A stretch of 64,000 bases of DNA from Candidatus Thioglobus sp. MED-G25. Its GTDB lineage: Bacteria; Pseudomonadota; Gammaproteobacteria; Arenicellales; UBA868. The stretch spans positions 1 to 64,000 of the forward strand of contig NTKC01000004.1 in NCBI GenBank assembly GCA_002456995.1. Direction: 5' to 3'. The position numbers and the translations under genes were made by a program. The notes under the pieces were generated by a model, which was given only the letters and a program-made list of their open reading frames with translations, was not told where the DNA came from and made no database searches. How positions within the stretch are numbered: position 1 is the stretch's first letter; each line of letters starts with the position of its first letter. Of the stretch, positions 9,045 to 35,541 are shown one piece after another.

Positions 9045-10145
9045 ATGGTTCTAGTCATCGTCCTCATTGTATTGATTGTCGGCTCGGTGCTGTTTCATTT
9101 TCTGAGCCCTTGGTACTTGACGCCGATCGCGTCGAACTGGGGCATGATCGACGACACACTTACCATTACATTCATTGTTTGTGGTTTCGTATTTGTTGCT
9201 ATCAACGCATTTATGGTCTACGCCATTTATAAGTATCGGTACCGCAAGGACCGTCGTGCGGAGTACGAACCAGAAAACAAGAAGCTCGAATGGTGGCTGA
9301 CAGCGTTCACCACAGTTGGAGTTATCGCGATGTTGGCACCTGGGTTGTTTGTCTGGGCTAAATATGTAGAAGTTCCAGAGGATGCCATGCTCGTCGAAGC
9401 CATCGGACAGCAGTGGAACTGGACTTACCGCTACCCTGGTGCTGACGGTGTGTTAGGCACCGTGGATACACGCAATATCAATGGCACTAATCCGTTCGGG
9501 TTAGACCTGGACGATCCTAACGGCCAGGACGATATATTGGTCAGCGGTCCCGAGGTGCACCTGCCAATTGGTGGGCCAGTCAAGATGTTGTTGCGATCCA
9601 AGGACGTACTACATGATTTTTATGTGCCTCAGATCCGCGCCAAGATGGATCTAGTCCCAGGAATGATCACCTATTTCTGGTTTACGCCAACCAAAAACGG
9701 CGAATACGATGTACTTTGTGCGGAACTGTGCGGTTCAGGGCATTACAACATGCGTAGCCGCATGGTGGTGGAAGACGAGAACGACTTTCAAGCTTGGTTG
9801 CAGACTCAGCCTACCTTTGCCCAGATGCTGGCCGGTGCCGGGAGCACTTCGGGTGGATCTTTGATCGAGCAGGGTGAGCAGCTGGCCCGAAATCAAGGCT
9901 GCATCGCCTGTCACAGTTTGGACGGTAGCGCGGGTGTTGGCCCGACTTGGAAAGGACTTGTTGGTAAGAACGAGATCCTGGTCGATGGCAGCAGTGTGCT
10001 GGTTGATGACGATTATTTAAAGGAATCGATCGTCAACCCAAATGCTAAGCTTGTGAAAGGCTATGCACCGATCATGCCGCCAGCGCAACTAACTGAAGAC
10101 CAACTCGATGCACTCATGGCTTATCTAAAGTCAGCTTCGGGTTGA
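9045..10145 (+). CDS. coxB: cytochrome c oxidase subunit II with fused cytochrome c (caa3 type)
   Basis: Electron-entry subunit of an aa3/caa3-type terminal oxidase in the cytoplasmic membrane. Hydrophobic segments lie near residues 2-22, 42-65 and 85-107. The periplasmic cupredoxin domain has EAIGQQWNWTYRYPG, VLHDFYVPQIRAKMDLVPG and the CuA site CAELCGSGHYNM. The C terminus adds a cytochrome c domain with CIACH (haem c) and a distal Met in PIMPPAQLTEDQ. The fusion identifies the caa3 class, which takes electrons from a small c-type cytochrome. It is first in an operon with coxA, two subunit III genes, a subunit IV and a c5-type cytochrome. Confidence 0.95.
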   Translation: MVLVIVLIVLIVGSVLFHFLSPWYLTPIASNWGMIDDTLTITFIVCGFVFVAINAFMVYAIYKYRYRKDRRAEYEPENKKLEWWLTAFTTVGVIAMLAPGLFVWAKYVEVPEDAMLVEAIGQQWNWTYRYPGADGVLGTVDTRNINGTNPFGLDLDDPNGQDDILVSGPEVHLPIGGPVKMLLRSKDVLHDFYVPQIRAKMDLVPGMITYFWFTPTKNGEYDVLCAELCGSGHYNMRSRMVVEDENDFQAWLQTQPTFAQMLAGAGSTSGGSLIEQGEQLARNQGCIACHSLDGSAGVGPTWKGLVGKNEILVDGSSVLVDDDYLKESIVNPNAKLVKGYAPIMPPAQLTEDQLDALMAYLKSASG

Positions 10146-10219
10146 TAGTAGTTGGAATTTAGAGCTTAAACACATAATTCAATTTAGACATCACACGTAA
10201 AAGTTTAAGGGTATTTATC

Positions 10220-12007
10220 ATGGCACTAACTGACGTCACACATGATGCGCAAGATTTTGTTCCACCAGCAGAGGTAGCAGAGGAGGAGCTGTATCACCCT
10301 AAAACTTGGCTCGGAAAATACGTTTTCTCCCAAGACGCGAAAATCATCGCGCTACAGTACTCCATCACGGCCATGGGTGTCGGCTTGTTAGCTTTGGTGT
10401 TGTCTGTACTGATGCGGGTTCAGTTAGCCTGGCCGGGTGCGGTGTCGTTCATCACTCCTGACGCGTACATACAGTTTGTGACCATGCATGGCATGATCAT
10501 GGTCATATATCTATTGACAGCCCTTTTCCTCGGGGGCTTCGGAAATTACCTCATACCGCTAATGGTTGGCGCACGAGACATGGTCTTTCCGTATGTCAAT
10601 ATGATCAGTTATTGGATCTATTTGCTGGCGGTTTTGATTCTTCTAGCAAGCTTTTTCACACCCGGTGGGCCAACCGGATCAGGGTGGACACTTTATCCGC
10701 CACAGGCAATTTTACCTGGCACGCCAGGGTCCGGTTGGGGTATTACCCTGATGTGTATTTCGCTGGGAATTTTTGTTGTCGGTTTTACCATGGGTGGATT
10801 GAACTATGTCGTGACGGTTCTACAGGCCCGCGCCCGGGGTATGACACTGATGAGAATGCCCCTGACCGTGTGGGCGATCTTCACAGCCACGATACTGGCG
10901 TTGCTGGCCTTTCCGGCACTCTTGGTCAGTGCCATCATGATGAGTTTGGATAACCTGCTTGGCACCAGTTATTTTATGCCCGCCATTATTTCTTTAGGGC
11001 AACAGCTCGATCACTCTGGCGGTAGCCCGGTATTATTTCAGCACTTGTTCTGGTTTTTTGGCCACCCTGAGGTTTATATCGTCGCCCTTCCGGCGTTCGG
11101 TATTGTCTCTGAACTCCTCAGCGTCCATGCCCGTAAGAATATTTTTGGCTACCGCCTCATGGTTTGGGCGATCGTGGTTATTGGTGGCTTGAGTTTTGTT
11201 GTCTGGGCACACCACATGTACGTGAGCGGTATGAACCCCTACTTCGGGTTTTTCTTCGCGACCACGACATTGATCATTGCGGTGCCCACGGCAATCAAGG
11301 TCTACAACTGGGTGCTCACCTTGTGGCGCGGAAACATTCGACTGACCGTGCCGATGTTATTTGCGATCGGTTTTGTGTTTACGTTTATCAACGGTGGCCT
11401 CACGGGTATTTTTCTAGGTAACGTGATTGTGGACGTGCCGTTGTCGGACACCTATTTTGTGGTTGCCCACTTTCATATGGTAATGGCCGTATCGCCGATC
11501 CTCGCTGTATTTGGGGCTGTGTATCACTGGTATCCCAAGATCACAGGTCGTATGTTGAATGATGGAATGGGCAAGTTTCACTTCTGGGTGACCTTTGTAG
11601 GCCTCTATTGCATTTATTATCCGATGCACTACCTGGGCATCATGGGCGTGCCACGACGCTACTTCGCTAACGAAGGTTCTAATGGTTTGCCGGACTGGAT
11701 TCCAGAATCCGCCCAAATGGTCAATGTTGGAATAACTATTGCAGCAATCTTAGTCGCGAGTACTCAGCTTGTTTTTCTGTATAACCTTTACCATAGCGCT
11801 ACCCGTGGAAAGCCGTCGGGCGGAAACCCCTGGGGCGCGACAACGCTGGAGTGGCAGACAGCTGATACGCCGCCGACTCATGGCAACTTTGGTAAAGAGT
11901 TGCCATCGGTTTATCGTTGGGCGTATGACTATAGTGTGCCGGGTGCCGAAGAAGACTTTATTCCTCAGAACGTGCCTGCAAGCAAGAAAACCGGTCAAGC
12001 TACTTAG
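10220..12007 (+). CDS. coxA: cytochrome c oxidase subunit I
   Basis: Catalytic haem-copper oxidase subunit, 595 residues with about 12 membrane helices, reducing oxygen to water and pumping protons. Visible ligands and motifs are TMHGMIMV (low-spin haem His), FFGHPEVYIVALPAFGIVSE (CuB His and the cross-linked Tyr, the glutamate-type E following in PAFGIVSE), AHHMYVSGMNP (two CuB His) and HFHMVMAVSP (high-spin and low-spin haem His). The N-terminal 45 residues are a charged cytosolic extension. It follows coxB by 75 bp. The set of motifs places it in the A-type haem-copper oxidases. Confidence 0.97.
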   Translation: MALTDVTHDAQDFVPPAEVAEEELYHPKTWLGKYVFSQDAKIIALQYSITAMGVGLLALVLSVLMRVQLAWPGAVSFITPDAYIQFVTMHGMIMVIYLLTALFLGGFGNYLIPLMVGARDMVFPYVNMISYWIYLLAVLILLASFFTPGGPTGSGWTLYPPQAILPGTPGSGWGITLMCISLGIFVVGFTMGGLNYVVTVLQARARGMTLMRMPLTVWAIFTATILALLAFPALLVSAIMMSLDNLLGTSYFMPAIISLGQQLDHSGGSPVLFQHLFWFFGHPEVYIVALPAFGIVSELLSVHARKNIFGYRLMVWAIVVIGGLSFVVWAHHMYVSGMNPYFGFFFATTTLIIAVPTAIKVYNWVLTLWRGNIRLTVPMLFAIGFVFTFINGGLTGIFLGNVIVDVPLSDTYFVVAHFHMVMAVSPILAVFGAVYHWYPKITGRMLNDGMGKFHFWVTFVGLYCIYYPMHYLGIMGVPRRYFANEGSNGLPDWIPESAQMVNVGITIAAILVASTQLVFLYNLYHSATRGKPSGGNPWGATTLEWQTADTPPTHGNFGKELPSVYRWAYDYSVPGAEEDFIPQNVPASKKTGQAT

Positions 12008-12061
12008 CTGTTCGATAAGTGATAGCTAAATTATTTATTTGACTTGGAGATAATCAACGCC

Positions 12062-12670
12062 GTGAGTGTTTTCAGGACTTTATCGACCAAACCTTGGGTG
12101 GCCGACCGTGGCTACATTTCCGATTCGCATGGATTTAGTTCGCCGACTGCAAAGGTGTTTCTGTCAATATTCCTGGGTGTTATTACAGCTGTTTTTGCAT
12201 TGCTCACGGCGGCGTACTTTATTCGTATGGCCTACGCCGATTGGCAGTCGATCCCTGTCCCTGCGTTGTTGTGGCTAAATACAGCTATCTTGATACTGAG
12301 TAGTGTCGCACTGCAGTGGGCGCGTACTTCGGCCAGGCGTGAACAGGCCGTTGGTGTGCGCCGAGGGTTGCTGGTGGGTGGCGCGTTTGCATTTGCATTT
12401 CTAGTGGGCCAATTTTTGGTGTGGCGCCAACTGGGGTCGCTAGGTTATTTTGTCGATACTAATCCGTCGAACTCGTTTTTTTATCTTATTACTGGATTAC
12501 ACGGATTACATTTGCTGGGTGGTCTAGTTGCTTGGTTCAGAGCATCACTTAGGTTGTGGCGCGGTGCTGATGTTGCCAAGATTCGAATGAGTGTGGATTT
12601 GTGTGCAGTCTACTGGCACTTCCTGCTACTGGTCTGGCTCGTGATGTTTGGCCTGCTGTTGGTCACCTAA
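12062..12670 (+). CDS. cytochrome c oxidase subunit III-like protein (first copy)
   Basis: Membrane protein of about 202 residues with five hydrophobic segments, of the haem-copper oxidase subunit III family. ITGLHGLHLLGGLVAWF and VDLCAVYWHFLLLVWLVMFGLLL are the two conserved His-containing helices near the C terminus. The N terminus (VADRGYISDSHGFSSPTAKVFL) differs from the second copy, so it is a divergent paralogue, not a duplicate. I chose GTG 12062 over an upstream TTG because GGAG lies upstream of the GTG. It is followed after 15 bp by the second subunit III gene. Confidence 0.8.
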   Translation: MSVFRTLSTKPWVADRGYISDSHGFSSPTAKVFLSIFLGVITAVFALLTAAYFIRMAYADWQSIPVPALLWLNTAILILSSVALQWARTSARREQAVGVRRGLLVGGAFAFAFLVGQFLVWRQLGSLGYFVDTNPSNSFFYLITGLHGLHLLGGLVAWFRASLRLWRGADVAKIRMSVDLCAVYWHFLLLVWLVMFGLLLVT

Positions 12671-12685
12671 GGAGAATAAAAACAT

Positions 12686-13411
12686 ATGACGCAATCTGGG
12701 CAAGCCACCATGACTGAGACGGCTCCGCTACTGGACGGTACACCTGGTGTAATCGCCGACTGGTCCTCTGACCAAAGAGCATTCAAGAAAACCCCTTGGG
12801 GGAAGGCCATGATGTGGATCTTCCTCCTCAGTGACACATTTATCTTCAGCTGTTTCCTAATCAGTTATGGAACGGTTCGGATGTCAACGACGATTCCGTG
12901 GCCAAATGCGAGTGAAGTCTTTGCCTTGACCATGTTTGGTAATCATGTGCCGCTCTTACTGATTGCCATTATGACCTTTGTATTGATCACCAGCAGTGGC
13001 ACGATGGCTTTAGCCGTCAATTTCGGCTATCGAAAGGATCGAATGACCTGCTTCTGGTTGCTGCTTGCGACTGCATTGCTCGGTGCTACTTTTGTGGGCA
13101 TGCAGGCTTATGAGTGGACCAAACTTATTGTTGAGGAAGGCGTCAGACCATGGGGTAATCCCATGGGTGCACCTCAGTTCGGCGCCATCTTTTTTATGGT
13201 GACGGGGTTCCATGGGACACACGTCTCATTTGGCGTGTTATTTCTGTTTATCATGGCTGTAAAAGTTATACGCGGCAAAATGGATCGGGGAGAACCTGGT
13301 TTTATGACGGGCCGCCCACAAGATTACGGCATGGTCGAAGTCATGGGCCTTTATTGGCATTTCGTCGATCTGGTTTGGGTATTCATATTCGCAGTCTTTT
13401 ATCTCTGGTAG
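12686..13411 (+). CDS. coxC: cytochrome c oxidase subunit III (second copy)
   Basis: Haem-copper oxidase subunit III family, 241 residues, about seven hydrophobic segments. Typical regions are WIFLLSDTFIFSCFLISYG, GMQAYEWTKLI, MVTGFHGTHVSFGVLFLFIM and GLYWHFVDLVWVFIFAVFYLW. The family shapes the entry of the proton and oxygen paths and stabilises subunit I. An AGGAG site lies 12 bases before the ATG; a second ATG eight codons in is an alternative. Having two adjacent subunit III-like genes is less common than one and may reflect a two-piece arrangement in this oxidase class. Confidence 0.9.
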   Translation: MTQSGQATMTETAPLLDGTPGVIADWSSDQRAFKKTPWGKAMMWIFLLSDTFIFSCFLISYGTVRMSTTIPWPNASEVFALTMFGNHVPLLLIAIMTFVLITSSGTMALAVNFGYRKDRMTCFWLLLATALLGATFVGMQAYEWTKLIVEEGVRPWGNPMGAPQFGAIFFMVTGFHGTHVSFGVLFLFIMAVKVIRGKMDRGEPGFMTGRPQDYGMVEVMGLYWHFVDLVWVFIFAVFYLW

Positions 13412-13418
13412 GAAAGCT

Positions 13419-13748
13419 ATGTCAACGTCAACAACAGAAGGCCAACAACATCCACTCGGCATTTATTTCCAGATCTGGATTCTGCTGTTCGTACTGAGCG
13501 GGTTCTCCTATGCCGTCGACTATTTGCAGTTCCAAGGTTACCTCCGCTGGTTTCTAATCGTTGTTTTTATGATGCTCAAAGCGGGACTGATCGTTGCGGT
13601 GTTTATGCACATGATCTGGGAGCGGATGGCATTAGTCTATGCAATCATCGTGCCGCCGTTGCTCCTACTGGTTTTCGTAGGAATTGGTACGCTCGAAGGC
13701 GACTATACATTTCTCACCCGGGAGATCTTCTTCGGCGGTGCGGAATAA
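13419..13748 (+). CDS. cytochrome c oxidase subunit IV-type protein
   Basis: Small (109 residue) membrane protein of the prokaryotic cytochrome c oxidase subunit IV family. It has three hydrophobic segments, at about residues 14-34, 41-63 and 68-90. The middle segment, WFLIVVFMMLKAGLIVAVFM followed by HMIWER, is the family's most recognisable part. It starts seven bases after coxC, so it is in the oxidase operon and probably has an assembly or stabilising role. Confidence 0.8.
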   Translation: MSTSTTEGQQHPLGIYFQIWILLFVLSGFSYAVDYLQFQGYLRWFLIVVFMMLKAGLIVAVFMHMIWERMALVYAIIVPPLLLLVFVGIGTLEGDYTFLTREIFFGGAE

Positions 13749-18851: not shown

Positions 18852-19009
18852 GGGGTCTCTACCGGCTGTAGTGGCAGCAAGTCGACAATTCGGATGGCAC
18901 AGAAGCGTATTACGGTCGGGTCTGAGTCAATAAAAGCGGTGTGTTGGGCTGTGAGTCGTCGGCGACTAGGGGGTCCCGACGCAAAAACATCAATCTGAGG
19001 TATTGTCAG

Positions 19010-19720
19010 ATGTTGAATTTAACAGGTCGTGTCATCATGATCTCGGGAGCCAATAGGGGTATCGGTCTCGCCGTAGCGCGCCGACTCTTGGATGGCGGTG
19101 CGAAACTGAGCCTGGGCATGAGAGACGAAGCGGCAGCAACAAGCCTGTTCGGCGATACCCAAGACATTATTTTGAATCGCTATCAGGCACGTGATGCGGG
19201 TTCTGCTAAACGGTGGGTCGAGAACACGGCGTCAACTTTCGGGAAAATCGATGGGTTGGTCAACAATGCAGGTATTTCACAGCCGGCAGTGAGTCTTATG
19301 GATGATGATGAAACCCAGCTGGATGAGATGTGGGCAGTCAATGTCAAGGGACCTACACGGTTAACGCGGTTAGCGATGCCTTACCTGGCTAAAAGTGGTA
19401 GCGGGCGTGTCGTAAACGTCGCGTCGCTGTCCGGGAAACGCCTGAAAAATAGTAATATGGGTTACGCGATGACCAAATTTGCCGTCATAGCTCTGACTCA
19501 CGCGACTCGGCGTGAGGGCTGGGATCAAGGTATTAGGGCAACCGCAATTTGTCCAAGTTTCGTTCGGACGGATATGACTTCTGAAGTCAGTCGCGTTGAC
19601 CCTAACGAGATGATTCAACCTCAGGACCTGGCAGAGCTGATACACACGGCACTCACGTTGCCCAACAATGCGGTGATGGCCGAAATGCTGGTGAATTACA
19701 CACTCGAAGACATGTTCTAA
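19010..19720 (+). CDS. short-chain dehydrogenase
   Basis: SDR-family NAD(P) oxidoreductase of 236 residues. Motifs are SGANRGIGLAVARRL (cofactor), NNAGIS, the catalytic Ser in VVNVASLSG and YAMTK (Tyr-x3-Lys). I place the start at ATG 19010 because GAGGT lies eight bases upstream and the product then begins directly before the first Rossmann strand. The frame extends 23 codons further upstream without SDR-like sequence. Substrate unknown. The gene is not obviously tied to the BMC locus that starts 1.3 kb downstream. Confidence 0.8.
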   Translation: MLNLTGRVIMISGANRGIGLAVARRLLDGGAKLSLGMRDEAAATSLFGDTQDIILNRYQARDAGSAKRWVENTASTFGKIDGLVNNAGISQPAVSLMDDDETQLDEMWAVNVKGPTRLTRLAMPYLAKSGSGRVVNVASLSGKRLKNSNMGYAMTKFAVIALTHATRREGWDQGIRATAICPSFVRTDMTSEVSRVDPNEMIQPQDLAELIHTALTLPNNAVMAEMLVNYTLEDMF

Positions 19721-20987: not shown

Positions 20988-21746
20988 ATGAGTGGCACAA
21001 AACGAAAACCATTAATTGGCGTATCCGCCTGTCGCAAGCAGATTGACCCTCATCCATTCAATATTGTGGGAGAGAAATACATCAATGGCATTGTTGACGG
21101 TGCCGATGCGATGCCAATGATGATTCCGCCGCTCGGTGATCGGCTTGATATCGAAGAATTGTTGGGTCGGGTAGATGGCCTGCTGCTGACAGGTAGCCCG
21201 TCCAACATAGAGCCACAGCACTACGGGGGCAACAACAGTGTGCCGCCCCACGATCCCCACCGTGATGCCACCACACTTAAGTTGCTGCGACGAGCGGTGG
21301 AGCGTGCTGTACCACTGCTGGCTATTTGCCGGGGATGTCAGGAGGTGAATGTGGCCTATGGCGGTACGTTGCATCCACAACTCGATCAGGTCGAGGGCTT
21401 GATCAGGCACCGCGAGGACAGCGCGAGGCCACTAGAAGAACAGTACGCGCCGACGCATCAACTGGAACTGACAGACGCGGGGCTGCTCGCGAGCTTGGCC
21501 GGTACAACAGAAGTGTTGGTCAATTCACTGCATACCCAGGGTGTGGCGGAGTTGGGCGCAGGGTTAGTGGTAGAAGCAACTGCACCCGATGGTTTGATCG
21601 AGGCTTTTTCAGTGCGAGGTTCAGCCGCTTTCAGCTTGGCTGTGCAATGGCATCCGGAATGGAAAGTGGTTGAGAATCCGTTCTATCTTGCAATTTTCAG
21701 AGCTTTTGGCGCAGCTTGTCACCAGCGGATGTCGGGGGCAATTTAA
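20988..21746 (+). CDS. puuD: gamma-glutamyl hydrolase, PuuD-like (class I glutamine amidotransferase fold)
   Basis: Cytosolic peptidase C26 enzyme of 252 residues, very like E. coli PuuD, which frees gamma-aminobutyrate from gamma-glutamyl-GABA. Catalytic Cys114 sits in LLAICRGCQEVNVAYGG, and His222 and Glu224 in VQWHPEW; these are the same positions as in the E. coli enzyme. LTGSPSNIEPQHYGG, HREDSARPLEEQYAPTH and VNSLHTQG also match. Its presence beside a PuuA-like ligase argues that gamma-glutamyl amides or acids are made and cleaved here. It is convergent with the BMC operon, 16 bp apart, and must have its own promoter. The real substrate may differ from GABA. Confidence 0.88.
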   Translation: MSGTKRKPLIGVSACRKQIDPHPFNIVGEKYINGIVDGADAMPMMIPPLGDRLDIEELLGRVDGLLLTGSPSNIEPQHYGGNNSVPPHDPHRDATTLKLLRRAVERAVPLLAICRGCQEVNVAYGGTLHPQLDQVEGLIRHREDSARPLEEQYAPTHQLELTDAGLLASLAGTTEVLVNSLHTQGVAELGAGLVVEATAPDGLIEAFSVRGSAAFSLAVQWHPEWKVVENPFYLAIFRAFGAACHQRMSGAI

Positions 21747-21762
21747 CGCCACTGAGGACCGG

Positions 21763-22968
21763 TCAAATATTTGTGTTTGCTGTTTGACCCAGCCTGCTGC
21801 GTACAGATTCAGCTGCAGCTTCAAGCAGAGTTTGTTCCTCGTCAGTTATGGACAGCTCAATAATTTCTCGCAGACCGTTACTATCGAGCACGCAAGGCAC
21901 ACCCAGTACAACATCATGGATGCCATACGATCCGTTCAACATGACTGATACGGGCAGTGCACCTGGCCTGGCACCGCGAATCGCATCCAGGAGCTCACAA
22001 ACCGCGTGCGCGGGCGCCAGTGTCGCAGAACCTGTCTTGCGCAATGCCACGACCGATTCACCGCCATGCACGGTGGTTTCGACACAGTCCCGAATGTCAT
22101 CGTCTGATAGGACTGTCGTTACGGGTTTATTACGAATCAATGCGGTTGACACTATCGGTACCATTTCGCCGCCATGACTGCCCAGCGTCACGGCTTCGAC
22201 ATCACTTACTGGCACACCCGCCTTTTGCGCCAGCGTCCACCGGAAGCGGCTGGAATCCAATGTGCCTGCCATGCCCAGTACTTTATGATGCGGAAATCCG
22301 GTAGCCTCTAGAACTGTCGTGGTCATTTCATCTAACGGGTTGGTGACAACGATCACGATCGAATCCGGCGCGTGAGTGCGGACCGATTCTGAGATCGACT
22401 GAATAATTCTACGATTAATCGTCATCAGGTCAGCACGACTCATACCAGGGCTTCTCGGACGGCCTGCCGTGATAACGACCACCTGAGCGTCGGCAATCAG
22501 ACTGAGATCGGTGCCGCCTTGAACGTGTGTACCACTGCGGGTAATTCCGGATGCGTGGTTAAGGTCTAACGCGGTTGCTTCAGCCACACCGGGTGCGATA
22601 TCAATTAGCGTAACTTCGTTTGCGATGCCGCGGTTCGCCACGAGATGTGCAATGTTCAGGCCAACACCACCGGCCCCGATCAGGGCAAGACGAGAAATTG
22701 TGCCGGGGGATCTGCCCTGGCTAGGTTTGGGTGCGATCCACTTGGGGTTCCTTCGATATAGACTGCGCTGGAGGGTGATAGCGCCATCAGTTTGTGGGAT
22801 GGCTGGTTTTTCTAGTGGGCCATCGACGAGTGTAATGCGGGCGCTTTCGGCAGATTCTCGTGCCAGTTGGGTGACGATGTCACCGGGCAGAATTTCCAAA
22901 ACCTGTCGACCGTTCTGACGGGCGTCAGCGATCTGTTCTGCGCCGATGACACGCGGGCTTCGGGTCAT
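21763..22968 (-). CDS. malate/lactate-dehydrogenase family enzyme with EutQ-like N-terminal region
   Basis: Last gene of the BMC operon; 401 residues. Residues 92-401 are an NAD-dependent malate/lactate dehydrogenase: GAGGVGLNIAHL, GRPRSPGMSRADLM, VVTNPLDEM, LDSSRFRW (Asp238) and the catalytic His265 in LGSHGGE. Arg172 sits where malate dehydrogenases have the residue selecting a dicarboxylate, so oxaloacetate/malate is the likelier pair. Residues 5-50 (VIGAEQIADARQNGRQVLEI, PGDIVTQLARESAE) resemble the start of EutQ; a proline-rich linker joins them. I infer that this region targets or docks the enzyme to the shell and that it regenerates NAD+ inside, replacing the usual alcohol dehydrogenase. 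The start overlaps the BMC-T stop by ATGA. Confidence 0.85.
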   Translation of the reverse strand: MTRSPRVIGAEQIADARQNGRQVLEILPGDIVTQLARESAESARITLVDGPLEKPAIPQTDGAITLQRSLYRRNPKWIAPKPSQGRSPGTISRLALIGAGGVGLNIAHLVANRGIANEVTLIDIAPGVAEATALDLNHASGITRSGTHVQGGTDLSLIADAQVVVITAGRPRSPGMSRADLMTINRRIIQSISESVRTHAPDSIVIVVTNPLDEMTTTVLEATGFPHHKVLGMAGTLDSSRFRWTLAQKAGVPVSDVEAVTLGSHGGEMVPIVSTALIRNKPVTTVLSDDDIRDCVETTVHGGESVVALRKTGSATLAPAHAVCELLDAIRGARPGALPVSVMLNGSYGIHDVVLGVPCVLDSNGLREIIELSITDEEQTLLEAAAESVRSRLGQTANTNI

Positions 22969-23600
22969 TGTGACGCCGTTTCGATGCCCTCGACCATACC
23001 GATGGCTGTGGTTGCCGCCTCCAGTGCGGTCTGTACCGAAGCTTCGCTGCCCGACATGAAAAATCGACCGTATCGACCCAGTGCTTGCACTTGTATGATG
23101 TCAATCTCCGCCGCTTTTTCTGCTTCATTGGCGGCGATCGAGATATACGCTGCTGGGGCGCACTCAATGATGCCAAGTGTTTGACCTGGCACCACCAGTG
23201 ATCCGCTGGACCACTTGTTCAGAAGTTGAGCTTGATAAGGTTCGACCGAAGTAATGATCTGGGTTGATTCAACCTCAGGTTTAAGGCGTTGATTCATGGA
23301 CAAGCCCAGTTCGCCCAAAATTGCATCGCATGCTGCGCTGACCTCTGAATTGTTCGGCGAGCGCAGAATGAAAAAGCCGAACTCGCGTTCCACAATTTGT
23401 GATGTGGCCTCAACACTGGAAGCTTTGAGTGCTTTGTCCACGAGCCGGAAGACTTCGTTGCCTGGCGCCAGTTCGCCGATCAACACCGTGTCTCCGGCCA
23501 GTGGGATCGAACCTTGAACAGTGGCGCCGGTGTAAGCCGCAAACTTGGGTTGCAGCCGGTCGATCTGTATCAGTGCACGAATAGTAAGGTCTGGATTCAT
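22965..23600 (-). CDS. BMC-T shell protein (tandem BMC domains)
   Basis: Trimeric shell protein that builds hexagonal tiles with a larger pore. It has two BMC-fold halves: first IPLAGDTVLIGELAPGNEVF and DKALKASSVEATSQIVEREF, then LGIIECAPAAYISIAANEAE and KAAEIDIIQVQALGRYGRFF. The start is ATG 23600 (MNPDLTIRALIQIDR) with AGGACC seven bases upstream; the open frame runs 16 codons further but overlaps the aldehyde dehydrogenase end. About 211 residues, the usual size. It is the only BMC-T gene here, making a minimal set of one BMC-H, one BMC-T and one BMC-P. Confidence 0.9.
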   Translation of the reverse strand: MNPDLTIRALIQIDRLQPKFAAYTGATVQGSIPLAGDTVLIGELAPGNEVFRLVDKALKASSVEATSQIVEREFGFFILRSPNNSEVSAACDAILGELGLSMNQRLKPEVESTQIITSVEPYQAQLLNKWSSGSLVVPGQTLGIIECAPAAYISIAANEAEKAAEIDIIQVQALGRYGRFFMSGSEASVQTALEAATTAIGMVEGIETASQ

Positions 23601-26562: not shown

Positions 26563-26859
26563 TTAGCCAGAATTAGCCTGGTATGTTAGTTGATTGTTCA
26601 CAGTAATTTCGTCTACCAGCATAACAGCTGTTTCGTCAGTCGGAGCACCACTGGTTTCCGGTGATATCCGAGCTGCCGATCCCGATGCCAGTAAGACCAT
26701 ATCACCAACACCGGCACCACAGGTATCAGTGATCACCTGGCTCGGGTTCAGTACTGCCCCACTGGCATCTACGATATCCACAAGTAGTAGTTTTTGGCCC
26801 ACCAATCGACCGTCTTTGATAGCACCGGTTACTGAGCCGATGACTCGGGCAATTTTCAT
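26563..26859 (-). CDS. BMC-P shell vertex protein (EutN/CcmL family)
   Basis: Pentameric vertex protein of 98 residues that closes the shell corners. [54 protein letters not shown] and the C-terminal [15 protein letters not shown] are the EutN/CcmL pattern. Its start overlaps the stop of the ligase gene by one base, so the ligase and shell are translationally coupled. Confidence 0.96.
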
Positions 26860-28154
26860 CAGAAGTTTTCTAGGTATCGTTCAATTTCTACGGGCGTGAC
26901 CTGGTTGGCAATAAACTCTATTTCACGCTCCGACTGCTGGATTAAAAGCTCGAGCAGATCCGCTCCTAAAACTTCGGCCATAAGGTCGGACTCTCGTGCG
27001 AGCGCTACAGCGGTCGCGAGATCTGTAGGTATAGGCTGACAGTCCGGGTTTTCGTATCCATTGCCTACCGTTTCTGCCGTAGGCTCAAGACTGTCTTCAA
27101 TGCCTTTGAGGCCGGCAGCAATTTCCAGTGCCAGTAAGAGATAGGGATTGCAATCAGCAGAGCCATCGCGTTTTTCTACTCGGACCGCGTTATCGTTGCC
27201 CAGAATGACGCGCAATCCAACTGTACGGTTGTCAATACCCCAAGCATTGTTTATCGGGCAGAAAGAATAGGGTTGACGGCGACGGTAGGCATTTGGTGTG
27301 GTTGCTGAAACCATTGCCATTTCAGCCATGTGTTTTTGAAGTCCCGCGAGATAGTGTCGTCCGAGCTTAGACAACGCACCATTGTCAGCCATTACATTCT
27401 GGTTATCTTTCCACAAGGAGTGATGAACATGGAACCCATTACCGGACTCGGCGAAGAAAGGCTTAGACATGAAAGTCGCATGATACCCATGCGCGTTTCC
27501 AAGTTCTTTGACGAGTCCCCTGAAAGTGACGACACGATCGGCCGCTATCAGTGCTTCGTCGTATCGGATATTGACTTCTACTTGACCGGCAGCATATTCC
27601 GGGTTGGACTGTTCAATCGGTATGCCGACTGCGGTTAAATGACGTCGAATTGGACCCAACACATGTTCCAGTTCAGCTGCCCTTGGCAGGCCATAAACCT
27701 GGATTCCGCGATCTCTGGGCTTCAAGGTTTCTTTGTCCAGTAGGTAGAACTCAAGTTCAGTCCCGATTCGCGTTACATATCCCATATCACTAGCTTTCTG
27801 TAAAACTCGCACAAGCGCAGCTCGAGGGTCTATCGCCACTGGCTGATGATCTGTGCCTACAGATTCGGAGAACGAATAGACCACACCTTCTTCCCAGGGA
27901 ATCGGGTGGACCTCACCAATGGGCATAACATGCACGTCAGGGTAGCCCGTGTCCCAGTTCGTATAGGGGGTATCCCACACGTCGCAAGTCATGTCGATGG
28001 CAAATATCGCGTTCGCCATTGCCATCCCGGACTCACAGATGTTGGCCCAGTTTTCCGCCGGGATACGTTTGCCCCTTAGTAACCCGTTTAAGTCACCCAT
28101 TCCCAGCACGACAGTGTGGACACCCTCTGGTAGCGGCTTATGTTCTTGGCTCAT
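26859..28154 (-). CDS. glutamine-synthetase-family gamma-glutamyl-amine ligase (PuuA/GlnT/GmaS-like)
   Basis: First gene of the BMC operon, 431 residues. Glutamine-synthetase fold with RIGTELEFYLLD (metal-binding Glu), GQVEVNI, GNGFHVHHSLW, NAYRRRQPYSFCPINNAWGI, NRTVGLRV and ADCNPYLLLA. The pattern matches PuuA (gamma-glutamylputrescine synthetase) and related amine ligases rather than GlnA, and the adenylylation-site region of GlnA is absent. It probably uses ATP to join glutamate to a primary amine. AGGAG lies ten bases before the ATG. A GntR-type palindrome lies 78-92 bp upstream in the divergent promoter shared with the oxidase. Which amine it takes is unknown; ethylamine, an amino alcohol or a diamine would fit. 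Confidence 0.88.
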   Translation of the reverse strand: MSQEHKPLPEGVHTVVLGMGDLNGLLRGKRIPAENWANICESGMAMANAIFAIDMTCDVWDTPYTNWDTGYPDVHVMPIGEVHPIPWEEGVVYSFSESVGTDHQPVAIDPRAALVRVLQKASDMGYVTRIGTELEFYLLDKETLKPRDRGIQVYGLPRAAELEHVLGPIRRHLTAVGIPIEQSNPEYAAGQVEVNIRYDEALIAADRVVTFRGLVKELGNAHGYHATFMSKPFFAESGNGFHVHHSLWKDNQNVMADNGALSKLGRHYLAGLQKHMAEMAMVSATTPNAYRRRQPYSFCPINNAWGIDNRTVGLRVILGNDNAVRVEKRDGSADCNPYLLLALEIAAGLKGIEDSLEPTAETVGNGYENPDCQPIPTDLATAVALARESDLMAEVLGADLLELLIQQSEREIEFIANQVTPVEIERYLENF

Positions 28155-28246: not shown

Positions 28247-28273
28247 TCACTGCCGAGCAATGGTGAGTTGACA

Positions 28274-29419
28274 GTGCCCATCTCTACACATGCCGTGGTA
28301 GTTGGTGCGGGAATTGCTGGTGTAATGACCGCCCTCTACCTCCAACGACGAGGCTGCAGCGTGACGCTGGTCGATCGCTGGGAGCCCGGTCATTCGCGCG
28401 CGTCATCTTCCGACTACAACCGGATTCTGCGCGCCATTCATGGCAGTGATGAGATGTATACCCGCTGGGTGCGTGAAGCGCGGCTGCGCTGGATGGAGCT
28501 GGAACAGGAACTCAACACAGAACTCTACATCGAATGCGGTGCGCTCATTCTGGCCGAAGAAGGTCACTCCACCTGGGAAGAGGTCACCATGCCTACGTTC
28601 GACAAACTGGGCGTTCCCTATGTGCGTGTCGGGCCTGATGAATTACCGGTGCGATTTCCGCAGTTTGATTTTCGCAAAGTGGCTTTTGGTTTATGGGAGC
28701 CCGAAGCCGGTATGGTGCTGGCCCATCGTGCGGTAACTGAAACTTTTAAGCAGTTCCTGCGTGAAGGCGGTCAGTTTCGTAGGGGTCGTGTCACCACCGA
28801 CGAAACTGAGACACCGCTTTTGGATGGGAAGCCCCTGTCTGCTGATCTCGTGGTCATGAGCTGTGGGTCATGGCTGGCGTATCTGTTTCGGCAGACTTTG
28901 GGCTCTATGCTGAAGGTGATCCGGCAGGATATTGTGTACACGTCGACACCTGATGGTGATCGGTCATTTGACGCTGATCAGATGCCCTGTTTTGTAGATC
29001 ATGGGTATGGGGCTTACGGGGTCCCGTCGGTCTACGGCTGGGGAGTTAAGGCGGCAATCGCCTGGCATGCCACAGATATTGATCTGGATGATGAGGATCG
29101 GGTGGTCGACCAGTCGGCCATCGCACGGTCACGACAGTACTGGGCGTACCGATTTCCACGCCTTGCAAATGAAATTGTGATCGACCAAAAAGCCTGTCAT
29201 ATCTCAATGACGCCGGACACGCACTTCATCATCGATTTCCACCCTCGCCACAGCAACGTGCTGATCGTCGGTGGGTGTTCAGGCCATCTGTTCAAGCATG
29301 GTCCGATGCTAGGAGATTATGTTGCCGGCGTTGGTTTGCAGGAGTGGGGAACAGCGCCGCGATTCAAGATCGGCCCGCGAACGTCAATGCCGATGAGCGA
29401 ATCGCCCTCGGGGCGTTAG
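28274..29419 (+). CDS. FAD-dependent amine oxidase, monomeric sarcosine oxidase-like
   Basis: Flavoprotein of about 381 residues that likely oxidises an N-alkyl amino acid to the free amino acid, an aldehyde and hydrogen peroxide. It has the dinucleotide motif VVGAGIAGVMTALYLQRRG and the sarcosine-oxidase end: KACHISMTPDTHFIIDFHP then NVLIVGGCSGHLFKHGP. The Cys in KACH (residue about 308) aligns with the Cys that holds FAD covalently in monomeric sarcosine oxidase, so covalent FAD is expected. The start is GTG 28274 (GGTGAG seven bases upstream) or TTG 28268. It is divergent from the BMC operon and convergent with the glx genes. PuuB-type oxidases look different, so I favour the N-alkylglutamate role. 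Confidence 0.85.
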   Translation: MPISTHAVVVGAGIAGVMTALYLQRRGCSVTLVDRWEPGHSRASSSDYNRILRAIHGSDEMYTRWVREARLRWMELEQELNTELYIECGALILAEEGHSTWEEVTMPTFDKLGVPYVRVGPDELPVRFPQFDFRKVAFGLWEPEAGMVLAHRAVTETFKQFLREGGQFRRGRVTTDETETPLLDGKPLSADLVVMSCGSWLAYLFRQTLGSMLKVIRQDIVYTSTPDGDRSFDADQMPCFVDHGYGAYGVPSVYGWGVKAAIAWHATDIDLDDEDRVVDQSAIARSRQYWAYRFPRLANEIVIDQKACHISMTPDTHFIIDFHPRHSNVLIVGGCSGHLFKHGPMLGDYVAGVGLQEWGTAPRFKIGPRTSMPMSESPSGR

Positions 29420-30864: not shown

Positions 30865-31541
30865 GCGCTTGCGTCCCGACTTTCAAAGTGCCATAGCCGC
30901 TGTGCTGATACAATTTTCTGCCAAGAGCGGCTGCCGTTATCCAGGCCCCTGCTGGCGAGCAGATCCTCGATTTGTTCAATTTCATCATCGGACGGTTGCG
31001 CGATTTTTGAATCTACGCCTAAGGATTCGATAGGGCCTGCGACCCAGACTTCACCGCCCCAGAGGGAATCAGCGCATGCTTCATCGGCGCCACCCAGTGC
31101 GATGATGCGGCCGGCGTGTGCCATAAACCCCGACAGATAGCCGATCTTTCCTTCGACAATTATGTCGCCGCCTTTCATGGAGACACCACAGCGAGGGCCG
31201 GCATCCCCTTTGACGTGAATCAGACCACCGCGCATTGAGGCCCCGAGGCTCATACCGGCATAGCCGTTTATCGTGATTTCGCCGCTGGCCATTGCCTCCC
31301 CGGCGGCCCAGCCGGCATTGCGTGATATCGTGATGTGAGCGCCATTGTTGAGACCGCCACAGTAATAGCCGACACTGCCGTCGAAATGAACCTCTGCACC
31401 AGCAGGTAGGCCGATGCCTAGATTATGGCGGGAACGGGTATCGGTCACGGCGACGGGCTGGCCGGATTCGATTCCGGCCCGAATAGCCTGGTTGCACTCG
31501 CGCAGCGGTCGGTCGGCAACCCGAACTTCGTGTCTGTTCAT
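30849..31541 (-). CDS. glxC: glutamate synthase GXGXG-domain protein (GlxC/MgsB family)
   Basis: 230-residue protein made mostly of the GXGXG beta-helix domain that forms the C-terminal part of glutamate synthase. Repeats such as GVSMKGGDIIVEGKIGYLSG and FMAHAGRIIALGGADEACAD are visible. In MgsABC-type complexes it scaffolds the amidotransferase and FMN subunits. It overlaps glxB by four bases (ATGA) and glxD by 16, so the three are made together. The last 50 residues (EQIEDLLASRGLDNGSRSWQ) are helical and end in the common C-terminal form of this subunit. Confidence 0.85.
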   Translation of the reverse strand: MNRHEVRVADRPLRECNQAIRAGIESGQPVAVTDTRSRHNLGIGLPAGAEVHFDGSVGYYCGGLNNGAHITISRNAGWAAGEAMASGEITINGYAGMSLGASMRGGLIHVKGDAGPRCGVSMKGGDIIVEGKIGYLSGFMAHAGRIIALGGADEACADSLWGGEVWVAGPIESLGVDSKIAQPSDDEIEQIEDLLASRGLDNGSRSWQKIVSAQRLWHFESRDASAWLMI

Positions 31542-32485
31542 GCCGCACGGTCCAGCGATGAGTGAGTCTGCCAGGTTTGCGTTAGGCTGGGACCGTCAAA
31601 GTTGACCACTTCGACTTCGTCAAGATGGACAGTTCGCACGGCTTGCTCTTCGGTGGCGATTGAGAGTGTATTGTTGCTGTCTACCGCCACCAGCGGTTTA
31701 ATAGCCCAACGATCTTTTGCAAATCCCAGCCGGTCGTGGTTGCTGTACAGAAAGGTGAAGCAGCCATCGATCTCCGTCAGCGAACGCTTCAATGCATCAG
31801 CCTGGGTCTCGCCTTGGCTCATACGGTCGGATATCCATACCGCCAGCAGTTCACTGTCGTTTTCGGTCATGAAGCGGTAGCCTTTTCGTTCCAGTCGTGC
31901 CCGCCAAGTGAAGTAATCGGTAATCTGGCCGTTGTGGACAATGGCGACATCGGGAAAAGGTCGGGCCCAGAATGGATGGCTGGCAGTCGGCGAGACATCT
32001 GATTCCGTCGCCATTCGAGCATGCCCTAATCCGTGTGTGCCAATGAAATCACGGACGTTGTGTTTTTCCGCGACCTCTGCTGCACCGCCGAGGTCCTTTA
32101 CAATTTCCAGAGCTCGGCCGACAGATTGCACTTCAATTCGATCAGAATATTCATCGATCTGTTGGACCCAATCTGTGAGAGACGTGGGCTCACGAATCTC
32201 CATACGTACAGACACATGATCTGAATCAGCTTCGTCATGAGTTGGGTCGCTCAAAAAGTCGCTGCCGTGCTCACGCAGAAGGTCGAGAAAAAATTCGAGA
32301 TCTGCCGACAGATTCTGTCGTTTGGCAGTCATTGCCCGCACAATATAACCGCTCTCAAGAGGCTTGCCGTAGAGGGCAAAGCCGGTCGAATCCGCACCGC
32401 GGTGGCGCTGGGCGTGCATTAGCTTAACCAGGTCCGCGCCAACCAGACCAGGTTCAGTCAGAATTCTGCCTGCGATACCACACAT
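31538..32485 (-). CDS. glxB: class II glutamine amidotransferase subunit (GlxB/MgsA family)
   Basis: Ntn-type glutaminase domain protein, 315 residues. I chose the start that gives MCGIAGRILTEPG, because the catalytic Cys must be residue 2 after Met removal; the open frame runs 18 codons further upstream but would bury it. HRGADSTGFALYG, GLGHARMATESDVSPTASHP, IVHNGQITDYFTWR and ENDSELLAVWI are amidotransferase landmarks. In MgsABC the subunit acts on glutamine or a gamma-glutamyl amide to feed amine to the FMN subunit. A perfect TGTAT-N5-ATACA palindrome lies 20-34 bp upstream of the chosen start, overlapping the likely promoter, so repression by the nearby GntR is likely. Confidence 0.87.
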   Translation of the reverse strand: MCGIAGRILTEPGLVGADLVKLMHAQRHRGADSTGFALYGKPLESGYIVRAMTAKRQNLSADLEFFLDLLREHGSDFLSDPTHDEADSDHVSVRMEIREPTSLTDWVQQIDEYSDRIEVQSVGRALEIVKDLGGAAEVAEKHNVRDFIGTHGLGHARMATESDVSPTASHPFWARPFPDVAIVHNGQITDYFTWRARLERKGYRFMTENDSELLAVWISDRMSQGETQADALKRSLTEIDGCFTFLYSNHDRLGFAKDRWAIKPLVAVDSNNTLSIATEEQAVRTVHLDEVEVVNFDGPSLTQTWQTHSSLDRAA

Positions 32486-32504
32486 AATGCCGCCCTTCCT
32501 GCTT

Positions 32505-32519
32505 TGTATACTGAATACA
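32505..32519. promoter_or_regulatory. candidate GntR operator upstream of glxB
   Basis: TGTATACTGAATACA is a perfect TGTAT-N5-ATACA inverted repeat, 20-34 bp before the glxB start and 13/15 identical to the element at 28232-28246. Its repetition at two promoters of the locus and next to a GntR gene supports a common regulator. Confidence 0.65.
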
Positions 32520-32604
32520 CTGATTATAGATCCTGGCAAATGCGGATCATAGAGGTGCTGTCTAACAACAAGTACAGCCTGAATGCCGCCAGTTTGGCTG
32601 GTGC

Positions 32605-33329: not shown

Positions 33330-33746
33330 ATGGTAATCATGTCAACCTCAGGCGGTGGCCGGTTTGAGAAGATCGGTTCCTACGTTCGGGCTAAACGCAT
33401 TGGCCCGTTCGTCTTTGTAGCCGGCACAACAGCCATTGAACCCAGCGGCAAACTGCATGCCCCAGGAGATACCTATGCCCAGACGATTTACGCGTTTGAG
33501 CGAATCGCCGATGCACTGGCTCGTGTGGGTGCTGAGATTAAGTATGTGGTGAGAACCCGGGCCTACCTCGCAGACATGAAAGAGGCCGGCGGCTTTGTTC
33601 GGGCACACGGGGAGATTTTTGCAGGCATCGAGCCCGTCAGTACCGCGGTTGAGGCCGGATTGACTACTCCAGGCATGATGGTAGAAATTGAAGTAGATGC
33701 CATCATTCATGATGTAGATGGGCAAATAACACTCGAAGGTACCTAA
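33330..33746 (+). CDS. RidA-family imine/enamine deaminase
   Basis: 138-residue protein of the RidA/YjgF family, which hydrolyses reactive enamines and imines to ketones or aldehydes and ammonia. VFVAGTTAIEPSGKLHAPGD, YVVRTRAYLADMKEAGGFVR and a C-terminal MMVEIEVDAIIH fit the fold; an Arg in VRTRAYL is at the place of the key active-site Arg. The start is ATG 33330 or, three codons on, ATG 33339. It is divergent from gntR, with a possible half-operator between. An imine hydrolase fits a pathway whose flavin oxidase makes imines. Confidence 0.85.
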   Translation: MVIMSTSGGGRFEKIGSYVRAKRIGPFVFVAGTTAIEPSGKLHAPGDTYAQTIYAFERIADALARVGAEIKYVVRTRAYLADMKEAGGFVRAHGEIFAGIEPVSTAVEAGLTTPGMMVEIEVDAIIHDVDGQITLEGT

Positions 33747-34527: not shown

Positions 34528-35541
34528 TTAAATGCTCGGCATCGGCTCGATCGAAATTCCATGGCTTGCCATTACCCTGACGGCCTTTGATCGCACGTAG
34601 TTGATAAGATGAGGTAAGGCTATGCTACCTGCCGTAACCTCCGGTCGTGCCGAATACCATCCAATAGATACCAATGCTCTTATCAACATGAAAATACGCA
34701 CGTATGCTAGATCATTGTCACTGATGGGCCGGAACTTGCGGTAACCAGTGATCATAGCTGCCTGCAGATGTTCAATGGGCTTGTCGAGGTGATAGTTAAA
34801 CAGAGCGACCGCTATGTCATAGTGATGCCAGCCGAAACCCGAATCATCAAAATCAATTACGTGTAACCGACTTCCTTCAACGACGATGTTGGCAGGATGC
34901 AGATCGGCATGGATGATACTGTACGTGTGCGGGTCTTTACCGAACTCAAGAAGGAGGTCATAAATATTGTGCCGCAACGTATCAAAATATATTTTTTGAT
35001 CTGGGGTTAAAGCAGAGGATTCCCAGAATCTTCCCCAGAATGGTGCCTCGCCCATTAATCCGTCGGCATCGAAGGAATGTCGCGAGAACTTTAACGGTAT
35101 GGTCCAAGAAACCGCTTGATTATGGAACTTAGCCATGATCTCACCCAAAAGTGAGAAAGAATTTTCAACAAATGTTGAATCAGGATTGCTTTCAATGAGA
35201 TTCTCCATTGGCATACCATCTACCCATTCGAGAAGTCCTGCATAACGGTGTTGATTACCAAGATAGACAGACACATATTGTTGACCGTCTCGAGTGATAC
35301 GGGGCACAGGAACAGTGAGTCCGGCGTCCAGAAGAGCCTCAGTCCACTGTAGCTCAGAAAGCAGTTCGTTCAGATTATGATAACCAGGCCTATGTAAGCG
35401 AAGAACAAAAGACTGTTTTGTGCCATCCGTAATCTTGAAAACGATGTTTTCGGTCAGAGTTAGGGGTTCGATATCTTGGGTCTGGATATCCCAGCTTGCA
35501 AGTGCATTATGAGCGGCCGCCCAGGACAAATCATTAAGCAT
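34528..35541 (-). CDS. APH-family kinase, hydroxylysine/amino-alcohol kinase-like
   Basis: 337-residue small-molecule kinase of the aminoglycoside phosphotransferase fold. SIIHADLHPANIVV is the catalytic loop (His-x-Asp...Asn) and LHVIDFDDSGFGWHHYDIAV the metal-binding Asp. ENIVFKITDGTKQSFVLRLH is the nucleotide-binding strand pair. It overlaps the PLP enzyme gene upstream by eight bases. An APH-type kinase paired with a class III PLP enzyme is the arrangement used for hydroxylysine, ethanolamine or 1-amino-2-propanol: the alcohol is phosphorylated, then the phosphate and amine are eliminated to an aldehyde. Antibiotic resistance is unlikely given this context. Confidence 0.8.
   Translation of the reverse strand: MLNDLSWAAAHNALASWDIQTQDIEPLTLTENIVFKITDGTKQSFVLRLHRPGYHNLNELLSELQWTEALLDAGLTVPVPRITRDGQQYVSVYLGNQHRYAGLLEWVDGMPMENLIESNPDSTFVENSFSLLGEIMAKFHNQAVSWTIPLKFSRHSFDADGLMGEAPFWGRFWESSALTPDQKIYFDTLRHNIYDLLLEFGKDPHTYSIIHADLHPANIVVEGSRLHVIDFDDSGFGWHHYDIAVALFNYHLDKPIEHLQAAMITGYRKFRPISDNDLAYVRIFMLIRALVSIGWYSARPEVTAGSIALPHLINYVRSKAVRVMASHGISIEPMPSI

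Follow-up and report, generated by a model that had tools for sequence, protein, structure and literature searches.

A BMC operon lies in the window, the 64,000-nucleotide stretch of DNA analysed here, and includes a gene for a malate dehydrogenase (MDH) that carries an additional N-terminal module. The features of the locus are as follows.

21763..22968 (-), BMC-associated malate dehydrogenase, 401 aa; Pfam Ldh_1_N/Ldh_1_C, NF004863
21787..22692 (-), MDH catalytic region, residues 93-394; seven invariant residues in 45 sequences
22729..22788 (-), linker motif DG(x)5RxLxRR(x)3W(x)2P, residues 61-80; from conservation
22816..22968 (-), EutQ-N-like module, residues 1-51, core 6-48; from HMM, hhalign and models
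22965..23600 (-), BMC-T, stacked gated BMC-Tdp (CcmP) type; PDB 5v74, 4ht5; NF053796
23611..24981 (-), CoA-acylating aldehyde dehydrogenase (AldDH); PDB 5j78, 417 bits
24981..26168 (-), opine-dehydrogenase-family protein; PDB 1bg6, 148 bits
26253..26549 (-), BMC-H shell protein; Pfam BMC, E 7e-27
26563..26859 (-), BMC-P shell pentamer protein; Pfam EutN_CcmL, E 3.6e-20
26859..28154 (-), glutamine-synthetase-like gamma-glutamyl-amine ligase (GlnA-like), candidate GmaS-like; Gln-synt_C
28268..29419 (+), monomeric-sarcosine-oxidase-type FAD oxidase, candidate N-alkylglutamate oxidase; PDB 1el5, 114 bits
29443..30864 (-), GlxD / MgsC-like glutamate-synthase FMN domain; NF008730 partial, 137 bits
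30849..31541 (-), GlxC / MgsB-like protein; TIGR03122-like beta-helix, 73 bits, below cut-off
31538..32539 (-), GlxB / MgsA-like class-II amidotransferase; NF001484-like, 78 bits, below cut-off
33330..33746 (+), RidA-family protein; family read from sequence, tblastn in relatives

The coordinates originally proposed for the MDH gene, 21763-22968, are correct, and its strand is minus: the reading frame runs from an ATG at 22968 to a TGA at 21763, and the plus strand is stop-ridden there. The gene belongs to a co-directional set on the minus strand that comprises the GlnA-like gene (28154-26859), BMC-P, BMC-H, the opine-dehydrogenase-like gene, AldDH, BMC-T and MDH. Because the MDH start overlaps the BMC-T stop by 4 bases (ATGA), MDH closes a series of tightly coupled genes. 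The BMC-P and GlnA genes also overlap (TGATG). The BMC-T reading frame opens at 23648, and the conserved start is at 23600. In this genus a gene for a PuuD-like gamma-glutamyl hydrolase (20988-21746) is convergent with MDH, and in relatives from other genera the RidA gene is directly downstream of MDH. In Ruegeria, a branched-chain-amino-acid-type ABC transporter, a candidate substrate importer, is encoded directly 3' of RidA (L048:10623-15262). A cytochrome c oxidase gene cluster, read from sequence, is found upstream of the locus at 9045-13748 and fits aerobic life; the organism looks aerobic.

The shell inventory of the locus is minimal. In the genome, which is 86% complete, the PF00936 proteins are one BMC-H and one BMC-T only, and the operon encodes one BMC-P. 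Over its full length BMC-T matches 5v74 with 165 bits and CcmP (4ht5) with 157 bits, and it reaches 204 bits against the CcmP model NF053796, under the cut-off of 340. A predicted gating motif, VEREFG, is found in 70 of 76 BMC-T homologues. By its sequence, BMC-T consists of two stacked BMC domains with a gating Glu-Arg and is predicted to form a gated pore.

The catalytic region of MDH is complete and has Arg172, as the original prediction held. Ldh_1_N was found at residues 93-232 and Ldh_1_C at 236-394 in a Pfam scan, and the protein scores 332 bits against NCBIfam NF004863, above the cut-off of 283, which places it in the MDH family. Seven residues (D123, R172, R178, N210, D238, R241 and H265) are invariant in 45 non-redundant homologues. 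We take R172 to be the dicarboxylate-selecting position and D123 the NAD-selecting one, with the catalytic His/Asp and the Arg pair among the rest. The AF2 model of the full-length chain has a pLDDT of 92, and the predicted fold matches the MDH structures 4plh and 4cl3 with a target TM of 0.95 (Foldseek). Among the matches listed, the nearest structures by sequence and predicted fold are reconstructed ancestral apicomplexan and Chloroflexus MDHs. The active-site class thus marks the operon enzyme as an NAD-type malate dehydrogenase, for which a preference for oxaloacetate is predicted by analogy. A second MDH of another subfamily, 30% identical to the BMC enzyme, is encoded on contig 3 of the same genome. 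Since the operon MDH is not the sole copy, it is probably not the housekeeping enzyme; it is probably a dedicated BMC enzyme that is distinct from the other MDH of the genome.

The N-terminal residues of MDH (about 5-50) had been proposed to resemble EutQ, and profile comparisons bear this out. We built an HMM of the MDH N-terminus with EutQ left out and searched it against 576 ORFs, drawn from the E. coli eut region and from one other locus. The top hit is E. coli EutQ, at 25.6 bits and E 1.9e-7; the alignment starts at EutQ residue 1 and covers residues 1-42. The best ORF that is not an EutQ homologue has an E value of 0.43 in the same search. With hhalign, the module aligns to the EutQ N-terminus with 91% probability (E 9e-7), and the EutP control gives 0.3%. 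On these comparisons, the module is homologous to residues 1-42 of EutQ. In EutQ of the ethanolamine BMC, this common 42-residue N-terminal module is followed by the cupin PF06249, whereas here it is followed by MDH; the C-terminal cupin is absent from MDH, in which the Pfam scan found Ldh domains only. T33 and A36 of the module are invariant in the 45 homologues. AlphaFold predicts a small alpha/beta unit with pLDDT mostly >90, either alone or in the full chain. A structure search with the model of the module gave no PDB match at E <= 0.001, and the solved EutQ structures are without the N-terminus; the best matches, to integrases and ribosomal proteins at E ~0.1, are taken as noise. A PDB sequence search with the module gave chance matches only. 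The N-terminus of E. coli EutT looked alike by eye but was rejected as a relative at 0.9% in hhalign.

The linker that joins the module to the enzyme (residues 50-92) is Pro-rich, as was noted earlier, with 7 Pro counted in 41 residues. It also holds a conserved element that the original prediction did not mention, in which D61, G62, R68, L70, R72, R73, W77 and P80 are each at least 90% conserved in MDH homologues. A helix is predicted at about residues 62-74 with a pLDDT of about 65-85. This helix was considered as an encapsulation peptide and rejected: it is significantly amphipathic in 0 of 44 homologues, and thus is not a standard encapsulation peptide. The MDH N-terminus as a whole also departs from that pattern, with a folded alpha/beta module instead of a terminal amphipathic helix and linker.

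We compared 80 homologous loci, 54 of them with full flanks. In all 73 loci with upstream sequence, the gene for a module-bearing MDH directly follows the gene for the gated BMC-T; one further module-bearing MDH lies at a contig edge. Three full-length MDHs are without the module and have no BMC gene nearby, and contig ends truncate another two MDHs. None of the MDH/LDH PDB chains among the matches listed aligns before residue 88. The original prediction had regarded the extension as a BMC feature, and in this sample of 80 loci it is restricted to BMC-linked MDHs. One Silicimonas MAG (L094) has a full BMC operon and an MDH match for which the module was not recovered, possibly from a frameshift or assembly error. 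MDH, BMC-T, AldDH, BMC-H and BMC-P are each present in 54/54 full loci, followed by the opine dehydrogenase (53), GlnA (53), the FAD oxidase (51) and RidA (49); GlxD was found in 34, with others cut off by locus ends. The operon is present in culturable Ruegeria, Sulfitobacter and Hoeflea. In a tree of the catalytic region, two non-BMC MDHs group beside the MDHs of loci that resemble MIC1. The presence of the module therefore needs two changes on the tree, and a single origin of the module is thus unsupported.

The module is also seen outside MDH. A search of 185 Gammaproteobacteria returned its own genome only, and among 337 Alphaproteobacteria there were 4 matches, of which three adjoin BMC genes and one is an HflK-type chance match. 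An acidimicrobial BMC locus (L090) encodes a standalone module protein of 115 aa (L090:11521-11868), directly after MDH and the opine dehydrogenase, in which the module is joined to a C-terminal helix-like segment. This protein aligns to the module with 96.7% in hhalign and has a weak E3_binding match (E 0.09). In three alphaproteobacterial BMC loci (L119, L120 and L122), proteins encoded between BMC-T and BMC-H have a C-terminal EutQ-N module and start with an encapsulation-peptide-like N-terminus; that of L119 adds an inserted SnoaL-like domain. Positions 110-153 of the PduM profile (PF15953) match the module-like part of a protein from locus L126 (E 0.0022), and positions 115-152 match a Chloroflexi homologue (E 0.022); direct hhalign of the module with the L126 protein is weak (7%). 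In the PduM-like proteins, the module-like segment is C-terminal and is not fused to an enzyme.

The neighbouring enzymes indicate how an aldehyde could be made and used. AldDH keeps the catalytic Cys and matches the acetylating AldDH 5j78; it scores 472 bits against TIGR02518, under the cut-off of 620, and no obvious encapsulation peptide was found at either end. The opine-dehydrogenase-like protein has an N-terminal helix and linker that resemble an encapsulation peptide. The helix is amphipathic (p<0.05) in 54% of 56 homologues, with p=0.086 for the window copy. Its catalytic dyad is altered: in the proteobacterial set, the His202 equivalent is Glu/Asp and the Asp297 equivalent is Asp or Cys, with Cys in the window copy. 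The acidimicrobial opine dehydrogenase (L090:10183-11511) retains PF02317 in full, and its peptide-like N-terminus is longer. For the GlnA-like protein, the best NCBIfam model is TIGR03105 (type III), below cut-off, and GMAS belongs to the type III GS class; in PDB, 5dm3 ranks first with 219 bits, and GMAS 7cql gives 115 bits. The FAD oxidase keeps the equivalents of R49/R52, K265, H269, C315 and K348 of sarcosine oxidase (1el5), which we take to include the Cys that binds the flavin covalently, the Arg/Lys positions for the substrate carboxylate and the Lys that activates oxygen. Pfam and NCBIfam scans of the operon genes found no Fe- or Zn-type alcohol dehydrogenase, in agreement with the original prediction. 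The genome has one marginal Fe-type match on another contig, and an SDR gene lies outside the operon at 18941-19720. PduL was not found in the 86% complete genome.

We suggest, by analogy with published EutQ data, that the module probably tethers MDH to the shell. In pull-downs, the first 100 residues of EutQ are needed for binding to EutM, a BMC-H protein, and K53 and D57 of EutM are required (Held et al. 2016, PMC4827028). The equivalents of both residues are kept in 62 of 62 BMC-H homologues, including that of the operon; these positions are broadly conserved among EutM relatives, and their retention is therefore permissive and not specific evidence. It is the constant adjacency to BMC-T (73/73), the lack of BMC genes around the module-free MDHs, the EutQ data and the retained K53/D57 that together make a tether probable. 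A role in shell docking or assembly would also be the simplest reading of the varied protein contexts in which the module is found. The side of the shell is another matter. MDH had been placed inside the shell, and the EutQ N-terminus gives a basis for shell binding, but for EutQ itself the published work favours the cytosolic side of the shell. MDH could thus sit on the outer face, where it would catch exiting NADH or malate or act as an EutQ/PduM-like assembly hub, and would not be a luminal recycler. This would fit the mapping of EutQ binding to the EutM helix taken as cytosolic, a module without encapsulation-peptide character beside an opine-dehydrogenase-like neighbour that has a peptide-like N-terminus, and the module on standalone and PduM-like proteins. 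However, Held et al. assumed which way the EutM helix faces, with some support (PMC4827028), and the fully conserved catalytic site argues for an enzymatic role. We regard an outer-face MDH as somewhat unlikely.

In our proposed scheme, the GlnA-like ligase would convert a primary amine to a gamma-glutamyl-amide, GlxBCD would turn this into an N-alkylglutamate, and the sarcosine-oxidase-like flavoenzyme would release glutamate and an aldehyde. The enzyme families suggest this route; the GlnA and Glx models are under curated cut-offs, and the ligase substrate is therefore uncertain. Hydrolysis of reactive imines by RidA would fit. The CoA-acylating AldDH would then form acyl-CoA and NADH. MDH, tethered to the BMC-H shell by the EutQ-type module, perhaps aided by the LYRRxPxW linker motif, would re-oxidise this NADH by reducing oxaloacetate to malate. 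The malate would exit, perhaps through the gated BMC-Tdp pore, and the other MDH and respiration would re-oxidise it; in this way no aldehyde would be lost as alcohol. We infer the direction and substrate of MDH, the amine substrate and the malate shuttle, and MDH could instead run towards oxaloacetate. Further points speak against the joint reading of a module-tethered MDH, an N-methylglutamate-like route from amine to aldehyde, AldDH and a malate shuttle: CoA recycling is unaccounted for in the scheme, and the redox role could belong, wholly or in part, to the opine-dehydrogenase-like protein. On balance, we consider the chances of this joint reading to be about even.

The competing readings concern the recycler, its substrate and the source of the aldehyde. 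MDH had been put forward as the best candidate for re-oxidising the NADH. Its active site is of the malate type, but it is not the sole candidate, as the operon also encodes the opine-type NAD-fold dehydrogenase with its altered dyad. That protein could be the luminal NAD+ recycler or act on N-alkylglutamate, which would leave MDH a side role. It is a member of the NAD opine dehydrogenase family (1bg6) with a peptide-like N-terminal helix and linker, and in 53 of 54 loci its gene is flanked by those for BMC-H and AldDH; the intermediate that we propose is, as opine substrates are, an N-substituted amino acid. Against this, the family's catalytic His is replaced in the proteobacterial set, a loss that makes the protein weaker as a recycler, and the window copy has Cys for the paired Asp. 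The MIC1-like loci, in which MDH is retained, also showed no such gene. We find this quite unlikely. It is very unlikely, in our judgement, that MDH reduces another 2-oxo acid (e.g. hydroxypyruvate or an aldehyde-derived oxo acid): the dicarboxylate preference of the active-site class does rest on analogy, but R172 and R178 are invariant in 45/45 sequences and the MDH family cut-off is exceeded. The aldehyde might come from an amino alcohol through an RMM-like kinase and a phospholyase of class-III-aminotransferase fold, or by a Puu-like route with the PuuD-like hydrolase. An APH/choline kinase-type and class-III aminotransferase pair lies near the locus (34528-36793), and the RMM1 description has a phosphotransferase and an aminotransferase; GlnA, the FAD oxidase, AldDH and the PuuD-like protein also make up the Puu set by family. 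Nevertheless, the genes that loci from other genera have in common are those for GlnA, GlxCD and the oxidase, and not those for the kinase, the aminotransferase or PuuD; a CoA-acylating AldDH also misfits Puu chemistry. We consider such a source unlikely and retain the N-methylglutamate-like route in our scheme.

An MDH-based redox cycle was originally thought to be unusual for a BMC. It has precedents in the PVM and MIC1 types, to which a lactate/malate dehydrogenase was assigned in 2014, and the role of MDH is therefore a precedented variant and not a new principle. In the aerobic PVM system (Planctomycetes/Verrucomicrobia; fucose/rhamnose), the lactate/malate dehydrogenase is the only other NAD+ regenerating gene (PMC4207490). 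The operon in the window shares with it an AldDH metabolosome with a lactate/malate-type dehydrogenase, but the PVM signature, a class II aldolase, is not among the operon genes, which have GlnA, Glx and the FAD oxidase instead. The MIC1 locus has AldDH and a lactate/malate dehydrogenase and no PTAC (Axen 2014), a combination that our operon has as well. In the MIC1-like loci L100, L101 and L104, MDH is 38% identical to the window MDH over its whole length, module included; L101 also carries an MreB-like protein and a phosphatase. Pfam and NCBIfam scans found none of the MreB-like, phosphatase and alcohol dehydrogenase genes of MIC1 among the operon genes, and the operon adds GlnA, Glx, the oxidase, the opine dehydrogenase and RidA. 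The N-methylglutamate pathway is encoded by mgsABC-gmaS with divergent mgdABCD. GlxBCD-GlnA with the opposed oxidase gene resembles this arrangement, and GlxBCD resemble the NMG synthase subunits. However, the GlnA/GlxBCD homologues score below cut-offs, no MgdABCD was seen and a sarcosine-oxidase-like gene takes its place; unlike that pathway, the set here goes together with a BMC shell and an AldDH of the CoA-acylating kind. In the part of the literature that was searched, no paper links a BMC to this gene set. The locus may already bear a type name in the Sutter 2021 catalogue, and MIC2-7 are possible. The new elements are the fusion of a probable tether to MDH and the pathway context.

In many metabolosomes, NAD+ is recycled by alcohol dehydrogenase. 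This costs part of the aldehyde. How NAD+ is recycled in metabolosomes without this enzyme was stated as an open question in the 2014 BMC taxonomy, and the dedicated MDH of this operon, with its probable shell-binding module, opens such recycling to direct tests. With the GlnA-Glx-oxidase set there is a specific proposal for where the aldehyde comes from in a BMC class without an obvious signature enzyme. As the EutQ module occurs on a cupin, on small BMC-locus proteins and on an enzyme, and also as a standalone protein, it may be a general domain for docking to shells, with possible use in engineering. Tentatively, and as a reading that we hold to be somewhat less likely than not, the locus may represent a widespread, uncharacterised class of BMC in aerobic marine bacteria. 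The signature chemistry of this class would be the oxidative cleavage of an N-alkylglutamate by way of the GlnA-like ligase, GlxBCD and the sarcosine-oxidase-like enzyme, combined with a malate/oxaloacetate shuttle through an MDH that the EutQ-type module holds on the shell, so that the aldehyde would be fully oxidised and none of it given up as alcohol.
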